Source: a virus. From it: a stretch of DNA of 23,273 nt. Positions 1-7,719 of the stretch are shown here, in pieces; within the stretch, counting starts at the first letter, position 1; the number at the start of each line of letters is the position of its first letter. A program made the position numbers and the translations under genes. Under the pieces are notes generated by a model, which saw only the letters and a program-made list of their open reading frames with translations, searched no databases and was not told where the DNA came from. Where the stretch lies: IMG/VR virus record IMGVR_UViG_3300037842_000103, positions 1-23,273 of that record; one strand, written 5' to 3'.

Positions 1-828
1 ATTATGACTGTCATCTGCGATAGTAGCAGTTAAAGTTCCATCACCTAAATTAGTCAGAGTAACAGCACCAGATAGGTCTCCTGCTAAAGTGATAGTAGGA
101 TCTGCAGTAGCAGTAGTTGCAATTGACATAGCATTTGCACTGAATGTAGCAGAACCAGTTACAGCACCAGTTAAAGCAACTGAAGCACCAGCACCTAGTT
201 TCTGACCTAAGTTGGTCGAAACAGTCGTAGCAAAGTTAGCATCATCACTTAAAGCAGCAGCCAACTCATTAAGAGTATCTAGAGTTGCTGGAGCAGATGC
301 CACCAAGTCAGAAACTTCTGATGAAATTACTCCTCTAATAGCAGTATTAGTAGACAACAAGTTACTGTTGAGTAAATCAACTCTAGCAGATTCGTCAGAT
401 ACTAACGAACGGATAGCAGTATTAGTACCAGTTAATCCAGTCCATAAGTCACCGTCTTCAGTTTCTAAAGCAGTTGCTCTACCTTGTAAAGCAGAGATAT
501 CGCTGTCGTTAGAACTAATCAACGAACGGATAGCAGTATTAGTACCAGTTAATCCAGTCCATAAGTCACCGTCTTCAGTTTGTAGAGCAGATATTTCAGC
601 ATCGTTATCTGTAATTGTAGATCTAATTGCTGTATTAGTAGCAATCAAGTTATTTTCTAACTGCGTGATTTTATTTGTATTATCCGTAGGACTATTTACT
701 AACATATCGTCAGTAATAGTTCCAGTTGTTATTGTGTTATTTGCGTGTAATTTATTGTTTGATCCGAATACTACGTTGCTTCCAACGTTTAATCCGTGTT
801 TTGCGACAAATGCTTTTTTAGTTGCCAT
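1..828 (-). CDS. Partial repeat-rich tail fibre/adhesin (N-terminal 276 codons; continues past the left edge)
   Basis: The frame opens with ATG at 828 and stays open to base 1, so the C-terminus is outside the window. The N-terminus reads MATKKAFVAKHGLNVGSN, followed at residues 26-33 by KLHANNTI, a segment also found inside the 1220-aa fibre (KLHANNTISNDTLTNAML). After that come four TNTAIR stalk units, one LDTLNELAAALSDDANFATT module (typical of phage tail-fibre repeats) and an IADDSHN segment. All of these have close counterparts in the 1731-aa protein. A plausible role is a trimeric fibre stalk that carries a receptor-binding tip beyond the window. An exact late promoter box lies 88 bases upstream. 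The ribosome site is weak (GGAAAAGAA). The gene is certain; the function is inferred from repeat style and context. Confidence 0.85.
   Translation of the reverse strand, partial: MATKKAFVAKHGLNVGSNVVFGSNNKLHANNTITTGTITDDMLVNSPTDNTNKITQLENNLIATNTAIRSTITDNDAEISALQTEDGDLWTGLTGTNTAIRSLISSNDSDISALQGRATALETEDGDLWTGLTGTNTAIRSLVSDESARVDLLNSNLLSTNTAIRGVISSEVSDLVASAPATLDTLNELAAALSDDANFATTVSTNLGQKLGAGASVALTGAVTGSATFSANAMSIATTATADPTITLAGDLSGAVTLTNLGDGTLTATIADDSHN
194..344. repeat. Dispersed DNA repeat shared with the 1731-aa fibre gene
   Basis: Bases 194-248 are identical over 55 bases to 3841-3895. Bases 250-297 are identical over 48 bases to 4551-4598. About 44 bases starting near 309 (agaaacttctgatgaaatta and onward) match the stretch near 4611. 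The best matches for one gene therefore come from different copies inside the other gene. This indicates mosaic exchange or gene conversion rather than one simple duplication. Confidence 0.85.
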
Positions 829-915: not shown

Positions 916-923
916 TATTTATA
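916..923 (-). promoter_or_regulatory. T4-type late promoter box for the partial fibre gene
   Basis: Exact TATAAATA on the minus strand, in the intergenic gap between the 131-aa gene and the partial fibre gene. In T4 this box is recognised by the phage late sigma factor gp55. Initiation would be near 910, giving a leader of about 80 nt. I see no convincing terminator for the preceding gene in 929-989. Confidence 0.75.
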
Positions 924-989: not shown

Positions 990-1385
990 CTATTCCTCAA
1001 CAACCGTTCTGGTTGATTTAAATTCAACACCAGTTGTAGTTGGGTCAGCATAAAGTAGAATATTACCACCAACCAGTTCAACTGAATATTCACTCAATGA
1101 AATATCATTAGTTTCGAGTGTAGCATATTCAGTATAATCCATACTACCACTTGAATTTTTTACTGCAGCGATAGTCGTATAATTATATGCACCAGTTTTA
1201 TTTGCCACAACATTATATGTTACAGCAGCAACTGCATCTGAAGATATAGAATCTATTGCTGTGTTTTCGTCTCCAGAAACAATCTGTTCGAATGTCTCAA
1301 CCGTTGGTTCTGCAGTTGCTACATTTTCTCCAACAACTCTTGAAGACATTATTTCAGCGAATAATCTATTTCTACTTTTTGCCAT
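990..1385 (-). CDS. Short stalkless adhesin-like protein (131 aa): anchor plus head domain
   Basis: The N-terminus MAKSRNRLFAEIM matches MAKSRSRDLADII of the 1731-aa protein, which fixes the start codon. From about residue 42 to the end the protein follows the same pattern as the last ~90 residues of the 1731-aa and 288-aa proteins. For example TAIDSISSDAVAAVTYNVVA aligns with QTIDTFGTADARTVKYLVEI, DYTEYATLE with VLSEYATVT, and there is a shared closing K/RxxRT or KxVKLA strand. It is therefore a miniature of the giant fibre with the repeat stalk removed. It lies immediately downstream of the giant gene, with a terminator and a late promoter between them. It could be an alternative tip, an assembly cap or a degenerate copy. 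No enzyme motif is visible. Confidence 0.85.
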   Translation of the reverse strand: MAKSRNRLFAEIMSSRVVGENVATAEPTVETFEQIVSGDENTAIDSISSDAVAAVTYNVVANKTGAYNYTTIAAVKNSSGSMDYTEYATLETNDISLSEYSVELVGGNILLYADPTTTGVEFKSTRTVVEE

Positions 1386-1391
1386 AACTTA

Positions 1392-1399
1392 TATTTATA
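1392..1399 (-). promoter_or_regulatory. T4-type late promoter box directly abutting the 131-aa gene
   Basis: Exact TATAAATA on the minus strand, with only six bases (TAAGTT) between the box and the ATG. T4 late transcripts start about six bases after the box, so the mRNA would begin at or next to the start codon. There is no Shine-Dalgarno sequence in that gap. Confidence 0.75.
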
Positions 1400-1417: not shown

Positions 1418-1440
1418 AAAAAAGGAGACCGAAGTCTCCT
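1418..1440 (-). terminator. Intrinsic terminator of the 1731-aa fibre gene (UUCG loop)
   Basis: On the minus strand AGGAGAC-TTCG-GTCTCCT forms a 7-bp stem capped by a stable UUCG tetraloop. It is followed directly by a run of Ts (TTTTTT). It sits 27 bases after the TGA stop at 1467 and before the next late promoter. Confidence 0.9.
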
Positions 1441-1466
1441 CTTTATTATAACTTACTTACTTACAA

Positions 1467-4400
1467 TCAAGCAACAGTTGCCAACTTAACTACCTTAACA
1501 GCAGAAGATGAAACGGTTGGAGTACAAGTCACAGTAAGTGTACTACCAGTTATACTAGCATCAACTGAACCTAACTCACTAGCACCAGTAGTAACAGTCG
1601 CATACTCAGACAATACAACATTAGTACCATCGTGAGTAAGAAGAACTTCCATAGAATGGAACTCATTCGCAACAGTGTCTTCAATCTCAACAAGATACTT
1701 AACTGTTCTAGCATCAGCAGTACCGAAAGTATCGATAGTCTGAGCAGTAGTACCACTAAGTGTTGCAGAAGCAGTGCTAATGTCAGCATTAACGTCAACG
1801 AAGTTTGCAGCACTTGAGTAAGTCTGAACAGATACAACATCATCTGCAGCAGCACCATCCGATAACCAAACAGAAGTAGTATTCGCTGCTTCATAGTCAG
1901 AACCAGCAAGTAGCATAATACCATTCATAAATACAGAGATCTTACCTGCTGTATAATCAAGTGTCGTACCGAAGTCATCAACACCAGTAAATGATTGCTG
2001 ACCAGCAGTAGCAGTATATGCTAACTCTGTGAACACATAATTGTTATTCGCAGCATATGCTTGGAATGCAGTATTCGAAACATAAGTAGAACTCAAGTGA
2101 GCATTACTTGCGAAGTCATCAGATATCGATACAGCGAAACTTGCAGTATTAGAACTAAACGAACCAGAACCAGTAACATCACCAGTTAAAGTAACAGTAG
2201 CACTAGCACCTAGTTTCTGACCTAAGTTGGTCGTTAAGGTAGTTGCAAAACTAGGATCGTCACCTAATGCAGTAGCTAACTCATTTAACGTATCTAGAGT
2301 CGCAGGAGCAGATGCTACTAAGTCAGCAACAGCACTATCAGTATAAGCACGGATAGCAGTATTACTAGCAGTTAAGTTTGTATTAACTAAATCAATTCTA
2401 GCAGACTGATCTGAAACTAATGAACGAATCGCAGTATTAGTACCAGTTAATCCTGACCATAGATTAGTATCTACTGTCTGTAGAGCAGAAATATCCGAAT
2501 CATTAGAACTAATTAAAGACCTAATAGCAGTATTACTAGCAGTTAAGTTAGAATTAACTAAATCAATTCTAGCAGATTCGTCAGAAACTAACGAACGGAT
2601 AGCAGTATTAGTGCCAGTTATTCCAGTCCATAAGTCACCGTCTTCCGTCTGTAGAGCAGAAATATCTGAATCATTAGAACTAATTAAAGATCTAATAGCA
2701 GTATTGGTTGAAAGTAATTCAGTCCAAGTTGCTTTATCAGATACATTGATTACAGTATCAAAAGTAGTTCCATCAGCAACAGAAATACGGAAGTTATTGT
2801 TAGCAGTAGTAAATGCTGTTCCAGTAACACCAGCAACAGTCTGAGTAGACATACTTGTAACACGACCATCAGCACCAACAGTTACAACAGGAACTAATGT
2901 AGCAGAACCATAAGCACCAGCAACAACACCTGAGTTAGCAAACGCAGTAGAAAGTGATACAGCATTAGCACTAAAGTTAGCAGAACCAGAAACAGCACCA
3001 GTTAATGTAACACTAGCACTAGCACCTAGTTTCTGACCTAAGTTAGTAGTCAGAGTTGTAGCAAAGTTAGCATCATCACCTAAAGCAGCAGCCAACTCAT
3101 TAAGAGTATCTAGAGCAGCAGGACTAGAATCAACTAGATTAGCAACAGCAGTATCAGTATAAGAACGGATAGCAGTATTAGTAGACAACAAGTTACTGTT
3201 AAGTAAATCAACTCTCGCAGATTCGTCAGATACTAAAGATCTAATAGCAGTATTAGTACCAGTCAATCCAGTCCATAAGTCACCATCTTCAGTTTGAAGA
3301 GCAGTAATATCTGAATCATTAGAACTAATCAGAGAACGGATAGCAGTATTAGTACCAGTCAATCCTGCCCAAGTTGCTCTAGTGTTTAAGTCTGTTTGCA
3401 ATCCATCTACGTTAGCAATAGTATGATTATGAGAATCATCAGCAATTACTGCAGTAATAGTAGCATCACCTGAACCATCAAAAGACGCAGAACCAGTAAC
3501 ATCACCAGTCAGTCCAATAGTCCTAGAAGTTGCTAAAGCAGTCGCAGTTGCAGCATTACCAGTAGTAGAACCAGAAGTACCAGTTACATTACCAGTTACA
3601 TTACCAGTTACATTACCAATTAGAGTATTCGCAGTTAAGTCACCAGTAACGGTTGTGTCACCAGAAATAGCACCACCAGTTTTATCAAACTTAGCATCTA
3701 ATGCAGTTTGTAAACCATCAACGTTTCCAACAATATGATTATGAGAATCATCAGCAATCGCAGTCGTAATAGTGATAGCATTAGCACTAAATGAAGCAGT
3801 ACCTGATACATCACCAGATAATGTTACAGTAGCAGTAGAACCTAGTTTCTGACCTAAGTTGGTCGAAACAGTCGTAGCAAAGTTAGCATCATCACCTAAA
3901 GCAGCAGCCAATTCATTTAACGTATCGAGCGCAGCAGGACTTGAATCAACTAGATTAGCAACAGCAGTATCAGTATAAGCACGGATAGCAGTATTACTAG
4001 CAGTTAAGTTTGTATTAACTAAATCAATTCTAGCAGACTGATCTGAAACTAATGAACGAATAGCAGTATTAGTACCTGTTAGATTAGTATTTAATACATC
4101 AACTCTCGCAGACTCATCAGAAACTAATGAACGGATAGCAGTATTAGTACCAGTTAAGTTTGTATTAACTAAATCAACTCTCGCAGACTCATCAGAAACT
4201 AATGAACGGATAGCAGTATTAGTGCCAGTCAATCCAGTCCATAAGTCACCATCTTCAGTTTGAAGAGCAGTAATATCTGAATCGTTATTACTAATTAAAG
4301 ATCTAATAGCAGTATTAGTACCAGTCAATCCTGCCCAAGTTGCCTTAGTGTTTAACTCAGTCTGTAATCCATCTACATTACCGATAATATGGTTATGAGA

Positions 4401-6662
4401 ATCATCAGCAATAGTAGTTGTGATAGAAACAGCATTTGCGCTGAATGTAGCAGAACCTGACACATCGCCAGTTAAAGCAACTGAAGCACCAGCACCTAGT
4501 TTCTGACCTAAGTTGGTCGTTAAGGTTGTCGCAAAGTTAGCATCATCGTTTAAAGCAGCAGCCAACTCATTAAGAGTATCTAGAGTTGCTGGAGCAGAAT
4601 CTACAAGACCAGAAACTTCTGATGAAATTACTCCTCTAATAGCAGTATTAGTAGATGTAATCGCCGACCATAAGTTAGTATCTTCAGTTTCTAGATCTGA
4701 TACATTACCTTGTAAGGTAGAGATGTCGCCATCGTTAGATGTAATCAATGCACGGATAGCAGTATTACTAGCAGTTAAGTTTGTATTAACTAAATCAATT
4801 CTAGCAGACTGATCTGAAACTAATGAACGGATAGCAGTATTAGTACCAGTTAAACCAGTCCATAAGTCGCCATCTTCAGTTTCTAAAGCAGTTGCTCTAC
4901 CTTGTAAAGCAGAGATATCGCTGTCATTAGAACTAATTAAAGACCTAATAGCAGTATTGGTTGAAAGTAATTCGGTCCAAGTTGCTTTATCAGATACATC
5001 GATTTGAGTATCAAATGTAGTACCGTCAGCAACCGCAACACGTAAGTTGTTATTAGCAGATGTAAATCCAACAGAAGTTACACCAGCAACAGTCTGAGTT
5101 GTTACACTTGTAACACGACCATCATTACCAACAGTTACAACAGGAACTAATGTAGCAGAACCGTAAGTTCCGCCAGTAACACCTGAATTTGATAACGTAG
5201 TAGAAAGTGATACAGCATTAGCACTAAATGAAGCAGAACCAGTAACATCACCAGTTAATGCAACGGTAGCAGTTGAACCTAGTTTCTGACCTAAGTTGGT
5301 CGAAACAGTAGTTGCGAAGTTAGCATCATCACCTAAAGCAGCAGCCAACTCATTAAGAGTATCTAGAGCAGCAGGACTAGAATCAACTAGATTAGCAACA
5401 GCAGTATCAGTATAAGAACGGATAGCAGTATTGGTAGAAACTAATGCTGACCATAGATTAGTATCTTCGCCTTGTAGAGCAGTAATATCGCCATCGTTAG
5501 ATGTAATCAATGCACGGATATCAGTATTAGTTCCAACTAAGTTTGTATTAAGAACATCAACTCTAGCAGATTCATCAGATACTAATGAACGGATAGCAGT
5601 ATTAGTACCAGTTAAGTTTGTATTAACTAAATCAACTCTAGCAGATTCGTCTGATACTAAAGATCTAATAGCAGTATTAGTACCAGTTAAGTTTGTATTA
5701 ACTAAATCAACTCTAGCAGATTCGTCTGATACTAAAGATCTAATAGCAGTATTAGTACCAGTTAATCCTGACCAAGTTGCTCTAGTGTTTAAGTCTGCTT
5801 GAAGTCCATCAACGTTAGCAATAATATGATTATGAGAATCATCAGCAATAGTAGTTGTGATAGAAACAGCATTAGCACTAAATGAAGCAGTACCAGTAAC
5901 ATCACCAGTTAATGCAACAGTAGCACTAGAACCTAGTTTCTGACCTAAGTTGGTCGTTAAGGTTGTCGCAAAGTTCGCATCATCACCTAACGCATCCGCA
6001 AGTTCGTTTAATGTATCTAGAGTTGCTGGAGCAGAATCTACAAGACCAGATACCTCTGAAGAAATTACTCCTCTAATAGCAGTATTAGTAGATGTTATCG
6101 CTGACCATAGATTAGTATCTTCAGTTTCTAGATCTGATACATTACCTTGTAAAGCAGTAATATCACCATCATTAGAACTGATTAGAGATCTGATAGCAGT
6201 ATTAGTACCAGTTAGATTAGTATTAAGAACATCAACTCTAGCAGACTGATCAGATACTAAAGATCTAATAGCAGTATTAGTACCAGTTAAACCAGTCCAT
6301 AAGTCGCCATCTTCAGTTTCTAAAGCAGTTGCTCTACCTTGTAGAGTACTGATGTCACCATCGTTAGAACTAATCAGAGAACGAATCGCTGTGTTACTAG
6401 CAGTTAAGTTAGAATTAACTAAATCAATTCTATCAGTTTCTACGTCAATATTGCTTTGCGTAGAAGAAATTTGAGAATTTACGTATGTATTTGATGCTAA
6501 CGTACTTGTGTCGTTAGTAATTTTTGATTCAACAGCATTTAAGTCTATTGAAATTTGTGATAATGTTACACCATTATTTGCCGATACATCTGCGTGATTA
6601 CTGGTATATATACTTTTTTTACCAATTATATCCGCGAGGTCTCTAGATCTTGATTTAGCCAT
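1467..6662 (-). CDS. Giant modular tail fibre/adhesin (1731 aa) with 26 stalk repeats
   Basis: Residues 1-16 (MAKSRSRDLADIIGKK) are an anchor-type N-terminus shared with the 131-aa protein. Residues ~80-1510 are a stalk with 26 copies of a unit starting (S/T)NT(A/D)IR. The commonest form is 25 residues (75 bp) with coiled-coil-like spacing of hydrophobics. The stalk also holds six LDTLNELA super-modules near residues 215, 433, 695, 912, 1186 and 1455, each followed by FATT...NLGQKLG. A TLVPVVTVG...DKATWTELL module occurs twice (about 490-562 and 1244-1314). From ~1540 on there is a head: an FTGVDDFG...VFMNGIMLL segment, then a VNADI...KYLVEIED beta domain, both paralogous to the 288-aa protein. 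The ribosome site is AAGGAAAA. The likely role is a trimeric fibre that contacts the host. There is no S74 chaperone and no catalytic motif. Confidence 0.9.
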   Translation of the reverse strand: MAKSRSRDLADIIGKKSIYTSNHADVSANNGVTLSQISIDLNAVESKITNDTSTLASNTYVNSQISSTQSNIDVETDRIDLVNSNLTASNTAIRSLISSNDGDISTLQGRATALETEDGDLWTGLTGTNTAIRSLVSDQSARVDVLNTNLTGTNTAIRSLISSNDGDITALQGNVSDLETEDTNLWSAITSTNTAIRGVISSEVSGLVDSAPATLDTLNELADALGDDANFATTLTTNLGQKLGSSATVALTGDVTGTASFSANAVSITTTIADDSHNHIIANVDGLQADLNTRATWSGLTGTNTAIRSLVSDESARVDLVNTNLTGTNTAIRSLVSDESARVDLVNTNLTGTNTAIRSLVSDESARVDVLNTNLVGTNTDIRALITSNDGDITALQGEDTNLWSALVSTNTAIRSYTDTAVANLVDSSPAALDTLNELAAALGDDANFATTVSTNLGQKLGSTATVALTGDVTGSASFSANAVSLSTTLSNSGVTGGTYGSATLVPVVTVGNDGRVTSVTTQTVAGVTSVGFTSANNNLRVAVADGTTFDTQIDVSDKATWTELLSTNTAIRSLISSNDSDISALQGRATALETEDGDLWTGLTGTNTAIRSLVSDQSARIDLVNTNLTASNTAIRALITSNDGDISTLQGNVSDLETEDTNLWSAITSTNTAIRGVISSEVSGLVDSAPATLDTLNELAAALNDDANFATTLTTNLGQKLGAGASVALTGDVSGSATFSANAVSITTTIADDSHNHIIGNVDGLQTELNTKATWAGLTGTNTAIRSLISNNDSDITALQTEDGDLWTGLTGTNTAIRSLVSDESARVDLVNTNLTGTNTAIRSLVSDESARVDVLNTNLTGTNTAIRSLVSDQSARIDLVNTNLTASNTAIRAYTDTAVANLVDSSPAALDTLNELAAALGDDANFATTVSTNLGQKLGSTATVTLSGDVSGTASFSANAITITTAIADDSHNHIVGNVDGLQTALDAKFDKTGGAISGDTTVTGDLTANTLIGNVTGNVTGNVTGTSGSTTGNAATATALATSRTIGLTGDVTGSASFDGSGDATITAVIADDSHNHTIANVDGLQTDLNTRATWAGLTGTNTAIRSLISSNDSDITALQTEDGDLWTGLTGTNTAIRSLVSDESARVDLLNSNLLSTNTAIRSYTDTAVANLVDSSPAALDTLNELAAALGDDANFATTLTTNLGQKLGASASVTLTGAVSGSANFSANAVSLSTAFANSGVVAGAYGSATLVPVVTVGADGRVTSMSTQTVAGVTGTAFTTANNNFRISVADGTTFDTVINVSDKATWTELLSTNTAIRSLISSNDSDISALQTEDGDLWTGITGTNTAIRSLVSDESARIDLVNSNLTASNTAIRSLISSNDSDISALQTVDTNLWSGLTGTNTAIRSLVSDQSARIDLVNTNLTASNTAIRAYTDSAVADLVASAPATLDTLNELATALGDDPSFATTLTTNLGQKLGASATVTLTGDVTGSGSFSSNTASFAVSISDDFASNAHLSSTYVSNTAFQAYAANNNYVFTELAYTATAGQQSFTGVDDFGTTLDYTAGKISVFMNGIMLLAGSDYEAANTTSVWLSDGAAADDVVSVQTYSSAANFVDVNADISTASATLSGTTAQTIDTFGTADARTVKYLVEIEDTVANEFHSMEVLLTHDGTNVVLSEYATVTTGASELGSVDASITGSTLTVTCTPTVSSSAVKVVKLATVA
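3579..3614. repeat. Three perfect 12-bp tandem units inside the giant fibre gene
   Basis: ACCAGTTACATT is repeated three times without change and encodes NVTG-NVTG-NVTG on the minus strand. Units of 12 bp keep the frame, so copy-number slippage would lengthen or shorten the protein by four residues at a time. Confidence 0.9.
4033..4232. repeat. Tandem 75-bp repeats, set B
   Basis: Units begin with gcagact at 4033, 4108 and 4183, exactly 75 bases apart. Each encodes one 25-residue TGTNTAIRSLVSD(E/Q)SAR stalk unit. The second and third units are nearly identical over about 50 bases; the first differs at several silent positions. Confidence 0.85.
5566..5765. repeat. Tandem 75-bp repeats, set A
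   Basis: Units begin with gcagatt at 5566, 5641 and 5716, exactly 75 bases apart. The units at 5641 and 5716 are identical for about 50 bases into the third, which then diverges at the module boundary. This is a recent in-frame expansion of the 25-residue stalk unit. Confidence 0.9.
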
Positions 6663-6720
6663 GGGAGTTTTCCTTGTTATTTAGAATAGTTTTTGTAAAA
6701 TATAACCTTTGAGTCGTAAT

Positions 6721-6798
6721 TTAATCATCCAGGTGTTCATTTCCCACCTTTAGATGTTCAATATCCCATCTATAGACTATAACAATGTTGGTGTTCAT
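6721..6798 (-). CDS. Possible 25-codon upstream ORF in the leader of the giant fibre gene
   Basis: It starts at the ATG inside the loop of the first leader hairpin (GGTGGGAAATGAAC) and ends with TAA at 6721-6723, encoding MNTNIVIVYRWDIEHLKVGN plus five more residues. The purine-rich GGTGGGAA just before the ATG could act as a ribosome site, although the spacing is short. The ATG in the third hairpin opens a second small frame (6681-6740, 19 codons), also starting MNT because the hairpin is repeated. Either may be chance. Translation would open the hairpins, so a coupling role is conceivable. Confidence 0.25.
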   Translation of the reverse strand: MNTNIVIVYRWDIEHLKVGNEHLDD

Positions 6799-6807
6799 TT
6801 CCCACCA
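6731..6807 (-). promoter_or_regulatory. Triple-hairpin leader RNA element upstream of the giant fibre gene
   Basis: Three hairpins on the transcribed strand. H1 is 6807-6789 (UGGUG stem, loop GGAAAUGAA, CACCA). H2 is 6772-6751 (UAGAUG, loop GGAUAUUGAA, CAUCUA). H3 is 6749-6731 (AGGUG, loop GGAAAUGAA, CACCU). Loops are conserved (GGA at the 5' side, UGAA at the 3' side). The stems differ by paired changes: U-A versus A-U at the outer pair, and G-C versus A-U at the third pair of H2. All three lie between the late promoter box at 6829 and the ATG at 6662, so they are in the 5' leader. The repeated pattern suggests binding sites for a protein or the ribosome. No known RNA family is recognised. 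Confidence 0.6.
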
Positions 6808-6828
6808 GTTAAAAGGTTCTTACAGTAT

Positions 6829-6836
6829 TATTTATA
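6829..6836 (-). promoter_or_regulatory. T4-type late promoter box for the giant fibre gene
   Basis: Exact TATAAATA on the minus strand, 17 bases past the stop of the 288-aa gene. Predicted initiation is near 6823, giving a leader of about 160 nt that contains the triple-hairpin element. This is the longest leader of any gene in the window. No terminator separates it from the preceding gene, so read-through is also possible. Confidence 0.75.
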
Positions 6837-6852
6837 AGAATAAACGTTCTGT

Positions 6853-7719
6853 TTAGATAGTTATGCTTGTTCTGATAACTTTAATTGTTGTGTTAGAATT
6901 GATAGGTGTAACTTTCAACCTTACTGAACCACTATCAATATCGCTGTCAATACTGCCTAAAGTATTTAAGGATTTGATGGCACCATATTCTGTTATATAG
7001 GTATCTGACCCATCGTGTAATACCATTACTTCCGAAGTTTGATATGTGTTGTTAGCATTGTTTGTCATTTGAACAATATACTTAGCACTTCTATAATCAC
7101 CAGTTCCCCAACTATCGACTACGGTTTCACTAACAGCACTTGTAGTTTGCGTATTAGTTGTGATGTCAGCATCCACATTAACCCAAGATAGATATGCTGA
7201 GTATGCCTGAACGCAAACGATCTCATCAGGACCTGTGCTATCAGTAAGTGTGATCGAACTTGTATTTGAAACGTAAGTATAGTCAGTATTTGCTTTAAGT
7301 AAAATACCATTTAGATGAACAGTTAAATTACTTTTATCGTGAATTAATGTTTTACCAAAGTCATCTGTTCCTTCAAATACAGTTTGATTATTAGAAGAAG
7401 TGAAATTGAATTGATTGAAAGATTTTCTAGTGAGGGAATCTTTGTCTGACCAAGAAAGGGTTCCAGAACCGTCTGTTTCTAGAACCTGTGCTGACGCACC
7501 ATCTGAAGTCGGGAAGGTGAATGGATTAGTATTACCTAGTGTGAGTGTTCCTATTTTAGAAATTGCGGTGTTAGAACCGATTTCGAAAATAGCACTTCCG
7601 TCGGAAGAGAAGAGTTTCTTATCTCTGGTGTTTAAGGCAATTTCGCCTTGTTGTAAGTCTGCAGTTGTTGGTGACTTGCCTCTGACAGCAGACCGTTTAA
7701 TCTTTAATATCGATGCCAT
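6853..7719 (-). CDS. Adhesin/fibre protein (288 aa): Mtd-type anchor plus the shared head domain
   Basis: Residues 1-50 carry MASILKIKRS...LQQGEIALNTRDKKLF, a pattern shared with the 342-aa and 132-aa proteins. It resembles the N-terminal region of phage tropism determinants (Mtd-like), by memory of the family only. A short linker follows. Residues ~104-170 (FTSSNNQTVFEGTDDFGKTL...VHLNGILLKANTDY) and ~171-288 (VNVDADI...YRSAKYIVQMTNN...VLHDGSD...ITEYGAI) match the last ~190 residues of the giant fibre. The protein thus looks like a short fibre with the same head but a different anchor. Ribosome site AAAGGAAAA, 10 bases before the ATG; the start codon lies in a 12-bp palindrome CCATATATATGG (7716-7727). 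It has its own late promoter. Confidence 0.88.
   Translation of the reverse strand: MASILKIKRSAVRGKSPTTADLQQGEIALNTRDKKLFSSDGSAIFEIGSNTAISKIGTLTLGNTNPFTFPTSDGASAQVLETDGSGTLSWSDKDSLTRKSFNQFNFTSSNNQTVFEGTDDFGKTLIHDKSNLTVHLNGILLKANTDYTYVSNTSSITLTDSTGPDEIVCVQAYSAYLSWVNVDADITTNTQTTSAVSETVVDSWGTGDYRSAKYIVQMTNNANNTYQTSEVMVLHDGSDTYITEYGAIKSLNTLGSIDSDIDSGSVRLKVTPINSNTTIKVIRTSITI

Follow-up and report, generated by a model that had tools for sequence, protein, structure and literature searches.

The window analysed here, a stretch of 23,273 bases from a record classed as viral, holds a baseplate and tail-fibre cluster on its minus strand, as judged from open reading frames and PHROG matches. Within this cluster, between the gene for a giant fibre and the next fibre gene, which runs off the window, lies a small gene for a protein of 131 aa (Table 1). 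Its frame starts with ATG, has no internal stops and is intact, as an earlier note on this DNA had stated. A counterpart occupies positions 3717-4109 of contig L002, the sole relative found in IMG/VR. It is likewise intact, with 76% identity, and thus escapes the outcome that the earlier note had named as counting against its idea, a gene broken or absent in all relatives. The gene order in L002 is that of the window: the contig starts inside the giant's stalk and continues with the giant's head, the small protein and the next fibre, here whole (4226-7237, 1003 aa, with the MATKKAFVAKHGLN start and a C-terminus that matches tail-fibre and baseplate PHROGs). Contig L003, from a sample whose number neighbours that of L002, carries the 288-aa protein and the giant's start. 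Because the two contigs overlap by 145 identical bases, they are probably one phage in two pieces.

Table 1. Features of the small gene and its surroundings in the window.
Feature	Position	Strand	Basis
First part of the next fibre (MATKKAFVAKHGLN...), truncated at the window edge	1..828	-	Translation
Late-promoter-like TATAAATA of the next fibre gene	916..923	-	Motif search
Small protein, MAKSR anchor and gp9-C-like head, no stalk	990..1385	-	Intact ORF, 131 aa
Small protein's head, residues ~35-129	999..1283	-	Profile matches; T4 gp9 C-terminal domain fold
Small protein's N-terminal anchor	1344..1385	-	8/12 residues in common with the giant's start
T4-type late-promoter-like octamer TATAAATA of the small gene	1392..1399	-	6 bases before the ATG
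Terminator-like UUCG hairpin and T run, between giant and small gene	1419..1444	-	RNA fold -14.5 kcal/mol, z -3.7
Giant fibre, 1731 aa	1467..6662	-	PHROG tail fibre matches
Giant's head, residues 1634-1729	1476..1763	-	Profile match; AlphaFold2; T4 gp9 C-terminal domain fold
Giant's anchor MAKSRSRDLADI	6627..6662	-	84% identity over 55 residues with L003
288-aa protein, KRS-type N-terminus; same head at 6862-7146	6853..7719	-	Head match; phrog_967 E 7.9e-11

Between the window and its relative, Nei-Gojobori counting gives dN/dS values of 0.26 for the small protein, 0.32 for the giant's head, 0.19 for the 288-aa protein and, with dS near saturation, 0.05 for the giant's first 50 codons. The small gene is thus under purifying selection, and its conservation and selection rule out a chance open reading frame. 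Searches elsewhere returned no match to the small protein by tblastn against 50,697 phage records or in a scan of genome contigs, no Pfam model at its cut-off and, by sequence, no phage protein in the PDB. The giant's N-terminus matched no phage record either, and IMG/VR gave only the L003 contig. The giant's stalk repeats differ strongly between the window phage and L002/L003; its anchor and head are conserved.

The earlier note also credited the small gene with its own promoter. A T4-type late-promoter-like octamer, TATAAATA, does precede the ATG, both in the window and in L002, where it stands five bases upstream (3704-3711). This promoter is also known in cyanophages, as NATAAATA (PMC2984593). 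The octamer occurs seven times in the window, always on the coding strand, against a chance mean of 3.2 on both strands; three of 100 shuffles reach seven. Across loci, 56 of 78 sites lie at most 200 bases before an ATG-started ORF of at least 80 aa, compared with 16 of 101 sites of a rearranged control word. These counts keep near-duplicate loci and exclude L039 (a copy of S-SM2), the repeat fetches L001, L014 and L095, and the T4 stretch L096. Most of the 56 (46 sites) stand 11-60 bases from the start, and only four stand within 10 bases: those of the small gene in both phages, and those of one further gene, present in L054 and in L056, a locus that nearly copies it. Since the T4 late octamer spans positions -13 to -6, transcription of the small gene would start on its ATG or a single base upstream. 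Genes with TATAAATA 5-8 bases before the start codon (window 1385-1399, L002 3704-3719, L054 3599 onward) may be leaderless late genes; a literature search on leaderless late phage genes returned nothing usable.

Expression of the small gene may also be set apart from that of the giant by what lies between them. The window has a terminator-like hairpin there (a pattern scan reported it on the plus strand only), and L002 has two terminator-like UUCG hairpins with T runs in the same interval. We infer from these signals that the small gene is expressed separately from the giant, and the very short leader suggests that its protein is probably made in low amounts. The giant's own leader contains two identical 17-nt copies of GGTGGGAAATGAACACC (coding strand; 6732-6748 and 6790-6806), each of which could fold into a 5-bp hairpin, and one similar sequence occurs in L003's leader. 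These copies are a possible translational control site.

The small protein and the giant start alike. Their N-termini, MAKSRNRLFAEI and MAKSRSRDLADI respectively, are identical at eight of 12 residues, in keeping with the shared MAKSRxR anchor described in the earlier note. To put this figure in context, 295 distinct N-terminal 12-mers from ORFs of the fetched loci were paired with residues 2-12 shuffled; none of the 43,365 shuffled pairs reached eight, the maximum being seven, in three pairs. Without shuffling, 216 of 43,365 pairs score at least eight, and the 15 examples listed look like shared fibre or tail families. Among the loci then in the set, MAKSRxR starts were confined to the window's two proteins and their counterparts in L002 (small) and L003 (giant). 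The agreement thus exceeds chance. BLASTP inside the window pairs the two N-termini at an E-value of only 0.057. AlphaFold2 places an anchor helix at residues 3-14 of the small protein with a pLDDT of 65-68. About 20 residues then separate anchor from head, which begins at residue ~35; the repetitive stalk is absent, and the earlier claim of nothing between the two ends holds to that extent. Twelve residues make a short anchor, which counts against the same acceptor for both proteins. Further, the ~40 conserved residues that come next in the giant are missing from the small protein, so MAKSR by itself may not suffice to attach the giant.

The other end of the small protein is also related to the giant. 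Profiles were built from the C-termini of other fibres, with both small proteins kept out: one from 15 heads detects the small protein at 1e-8 among 802 ORFs, and one from 81 distinct heads detects the two small proteins at 1.3e-10 (the window's) and 4.5e-10 among 4,899 ORFs. Comparison of the two small proteins with 40 heads by hhalign gives a probability of 96 and an E-value of 4e-9. The small head of ~95 aa is therefore homologous to the giant's last ~95 residues, and the earlier description of it as a diverged version of the giant's last ~90 residues stands. Divergence is deep: the two heads are 17% identical, and BLASTP within the window finds no significant match between them. The small head keeps the alignment's invariant tyrosine and lacks the HDG and YRS consensus of most heads, having KNSSG and VAAV there instead; it ranks among the most diverged members. 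Pfam gave only single-member matches to the 46 aligned heads, at E 0.007-0.01, and the head profile found no phage protein in the PDB by sequence.

A tree of 83 heads, built from few columns and leaving many forks open, separates the small pair from the giant pair and gives the small pair a very long branch (2.79). A single clade of the small and giant pairs was not rejected (p-AU 0.125). A recent copy of the giant is ruled out by the low identity and by the heads not joining in the tree. The small gene could have arisen by duplication of the giant followed by loss of the stalk, or by capture of a separate head. The earlier note had offered, as its alternative, that the gene is a mere relic of such a stalk deletion. 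An anchor and head without stalk would be the expected remains of a duplicated giant, and the tolerated clade allows for it. However, the dN/dS of 0.26, a frame intact in two phages, a conserved promoter-like site and heads that are so dissimilar and lie apart in the tree all speak against decay, and we consider a relic highly improbable.

AlphaFold2 models the small protein with a mean pLDDT of 88.1 (94-96 for each block of ten residues from 41 to 130) and the giant's last 108 residues with a mean of 95.8. Both predicted heads have eight strands in the same order; a difference between these folds had been named beforehand as refuting the pairing. The agreement is partly built in because both models used alignments of related heads, that of the small protein (A6) containing the giant's head and that of the giant's head (A7) omitting the small proteins; each head is predicted with high confidence. 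For both, Foldseek returned T4 gp9 (1qex) as the best solved match. VIA-align 2 aligned the small protein with gp9 169-283 (Z 14.0, rmsd 2.1, 108 residues; the best of 992 chains) and the giant's head with gp9 169-284 (Z 14.8, rmsd 2.0, 108 residues). Next came a protein from a variant of Klebsiella phage KP1 (Z 11.2 for the small protein and 12.1 for the giant) and tailspikes at ~10. The fold of both heads also matches tailspikes of Acinetobacter phages (6c72, 6e1r) in their C-terminal regions.

By sequence, T4 gp9 is assigned to phrog_967, a family matched by 17 of the 46 aligned head regions (A6), whereas the small protein has no match to it at E 0.1. With gp9 alone, hhalign gave only a meaningless 16-column match for the small pair; the head profile aligned with gp9 in register at E 0.0045 and a probability of just 8%. 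Because these hhalign results are weak, the link to gp9 rests on the fold and on phrog_967. T4 gp9, which connects the baseplate wedge to the long tail fibre, has an N-terminal coiled coil, and its middle domain defines the gp9 connector. The likeness lies in the predicted head fold and in a helix that precedes the head, as the coiled coil does in gp9. The small protein is far shorter (131 aa against 288 aa) and has no middle domain.

What such a head does may differ between systems. In tailspikes, the C-terminal region of this type is the tip, with nothing further known to be attached there. In T4, gp9 is bound to gp7 through its N-terminal domain, and its C-terminal domain is where the long tail fibre attaches, coaxially (PMC3004832). 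Since gp9-type heads serve as sockets in T4 and as tips in tailspikes, the predicted fold leaves both fibre-carrying and host contact possible for the small head. The word head need not mean a receptor binder: because the closest solved fold is that domain of gp9 where another fibre attaches, the protein could be a connector just as well as a receptor binder, a cap or a plug. The small protein could thus be a minimal gp9-like connector, with its MAKSR helix on the baseplate and its head a socket for another fibre, for example the one encoded next; the giant would then be a long-arm version of the same connector. Both the gp9-like fold and its T4 role agree with this, as does a fibre gene that comes next in the window and in L002. 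The reading is nevertheless a doubtful one, since the Acinetobacter phage tailspikes match too and are not known to carry anything further, the N-terminal and middle domains of gp9 are absent, and neither phrog_967 nor hhalign with gp9 alone links the small protein to gp9 convincingly.

Heads of this family are common among marine phages. The window and the fetched loci, 92 in all without L039 and repeat fetches, contain the domain 106 times, and 101 of the 106 lie within 12 residues of the C-terminus. Twenty-four of the 106 belong to proteins no longer than 150 aa: 18 of the LISQKNF type, two each of the MPYIVG and LTLRTVKG types, and the two MAKSR proteins. An automatic count gives 30, six GTG-started proteins (L072-L077) having been measured from an internal methionine. 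The sample contains the best 80 of at least 527 loci, picked by similarity to six heads of the cyanophage and 288-aa types, and the 24 of 106 is no census. Twelve loci have two or more head-bearing ORFs, whose N-termini agree at eight of 12 positions in the window and at no more than four of 12 elsewhere. In this sample, stalkless heads are thus ordinary among marine phages, whereas one with its neighbour's anchor is not. The pair that the earlier note proposed to seek in relatives, with the same anchor and head, with and without stalk, was seen only in this lineage.

Several of these proteins resemble the small protein in part. The cyanophage tail fibres of S-SM2, S-SRM01 and S-TIM5 have a homologous C-terminal head, but are long proteins with other N-termini. 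The 137-aa protein of L054/L056 (start MATLTLRTVKGS) likewise runs from a fibre-type N-terminus directly into the head, yet agrees at only two of 12 positions with the other head protein of its locus. The 114-115-aa stand-alone heads of the LISQKNF type (18 of the best 80 loci) also consist of little beyond the head; unlike the small protein, they lack the MAKSR start, and their genes lie in a neck and terminase neighbourhood. L070 (271-1626) encodes a 446-aa neck-type protein with two tandem heads at its C-terminus. In L050 (6616-7294), L048, L082, L010 and L011, two small genes, one for a protein of 110-112 aa and one for a head of 114-123 aa, form a conserved pair behind a fibre of ~930-1200 aa, upstream of a large terminase gene read from sequence. 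This pair is reminiscent of bead-type neck fibres.

These neighbourhoods raise the prospect that the small protein is a stand-alone head or bead fitted elsewhere, at the neck or on another fibre, with its MAKSR start a different or shared adaptor. In marine phages, genes for 114-115-aa heads without MAKSR do come after those for a fibre of ~1000 aa and a protein of 111 aa, upstream of the gene read as large terminase, and the bead-chain neck fibre of A-1(L) is built from separate small genes (PMC10966104, section 8). The small gene, however, lies within the baseplate and tail-fibre cluster, and its product's N-terminus matches the neighbouring fibre, not neck proteins; a bead is accordingly unlikely.

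We tentatively favour, at somewhat less than an even chance, a reading in which the small protein has a structural role in the tail fibres of a marine, T4-like phage, as the giant's counterpart without a stalk, mounted on the acceptor that the giant uses. It would most likely be a minor component of the virion and share the giant's docking place. This reading draws on the anchor match, head homology by profile and fold, conserved gene order, selection, the promoter-like site, the terminator-like hairpins and the phrog_967 match of the 288-aa neighbour. The modest confidence of the helix, the single known relative and the missing HDG and YRS of the small head count against it. The small protein would form a trimer, as gp9 does, and its MAKSR helix would enter the same baseplate socket as the giant's. 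A candidate for this socket is the 288-aa protein, encoded just before the giant and the small gene and without a match in the PDB by sequence. It ends in the window's third head, beside those of the giant and the small protein, which the earlier note did not mention. Since the T4 long fibre docks on the C-terminal domain of gp9, the gp9-like head of the 288-aa protein may be the acceptor.

With such an acceptor, a short head at the baseplate would replace the arm of ~1700 residues in a minority of the sockets, and the ratio of short to long would be set by the small gene's separate, probably weak, near-leaderless expression. The same anchor and the low amounts suggested by the very short leader would also suit an assembly factor or plug that is no part of the virion and occupies the site only until the giant takes its place. 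No result favours such a factor over a stable part of the virion, and larger head-bearing proteins are mostly fibre-like; we regard it as quite unlikely.

In Listeria phages, short receptor-binding proteins arise from internal starts. A literature search on short forms of receptor-binding proteins returned nothing usable, and the truncations in the part of PMC7301860 consulted are engineered ones. Going beyond the favoured reading, we speculate that one gp9-type head is built both with a long stalk and with none, on the same plug, and that the two are mixed at equivalent positions on each virion, a proposal that is still rather improbable. Its ratio would be set at transcription and translation, by the terminator-like hairpin and the near-leaderless late gene.

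If true, paralogues with and without a stalk would share one fibre site, in a mosaic that the genome itself encodes. Several fibre genes per phage tail raise the question of how positions get shared out, and two separately controlled paralogues whose essential difference is the stalk would offer a clean natural test of competing parts at identical sites. More broadly, an unnamed head domain that is widespread in marine phages and has no Pfam model is recognised here as a fold relative of the fibre socket of T4 gp9, and this gp9-type fold offers a structural reading for many 'hypothetical' fibre ends.
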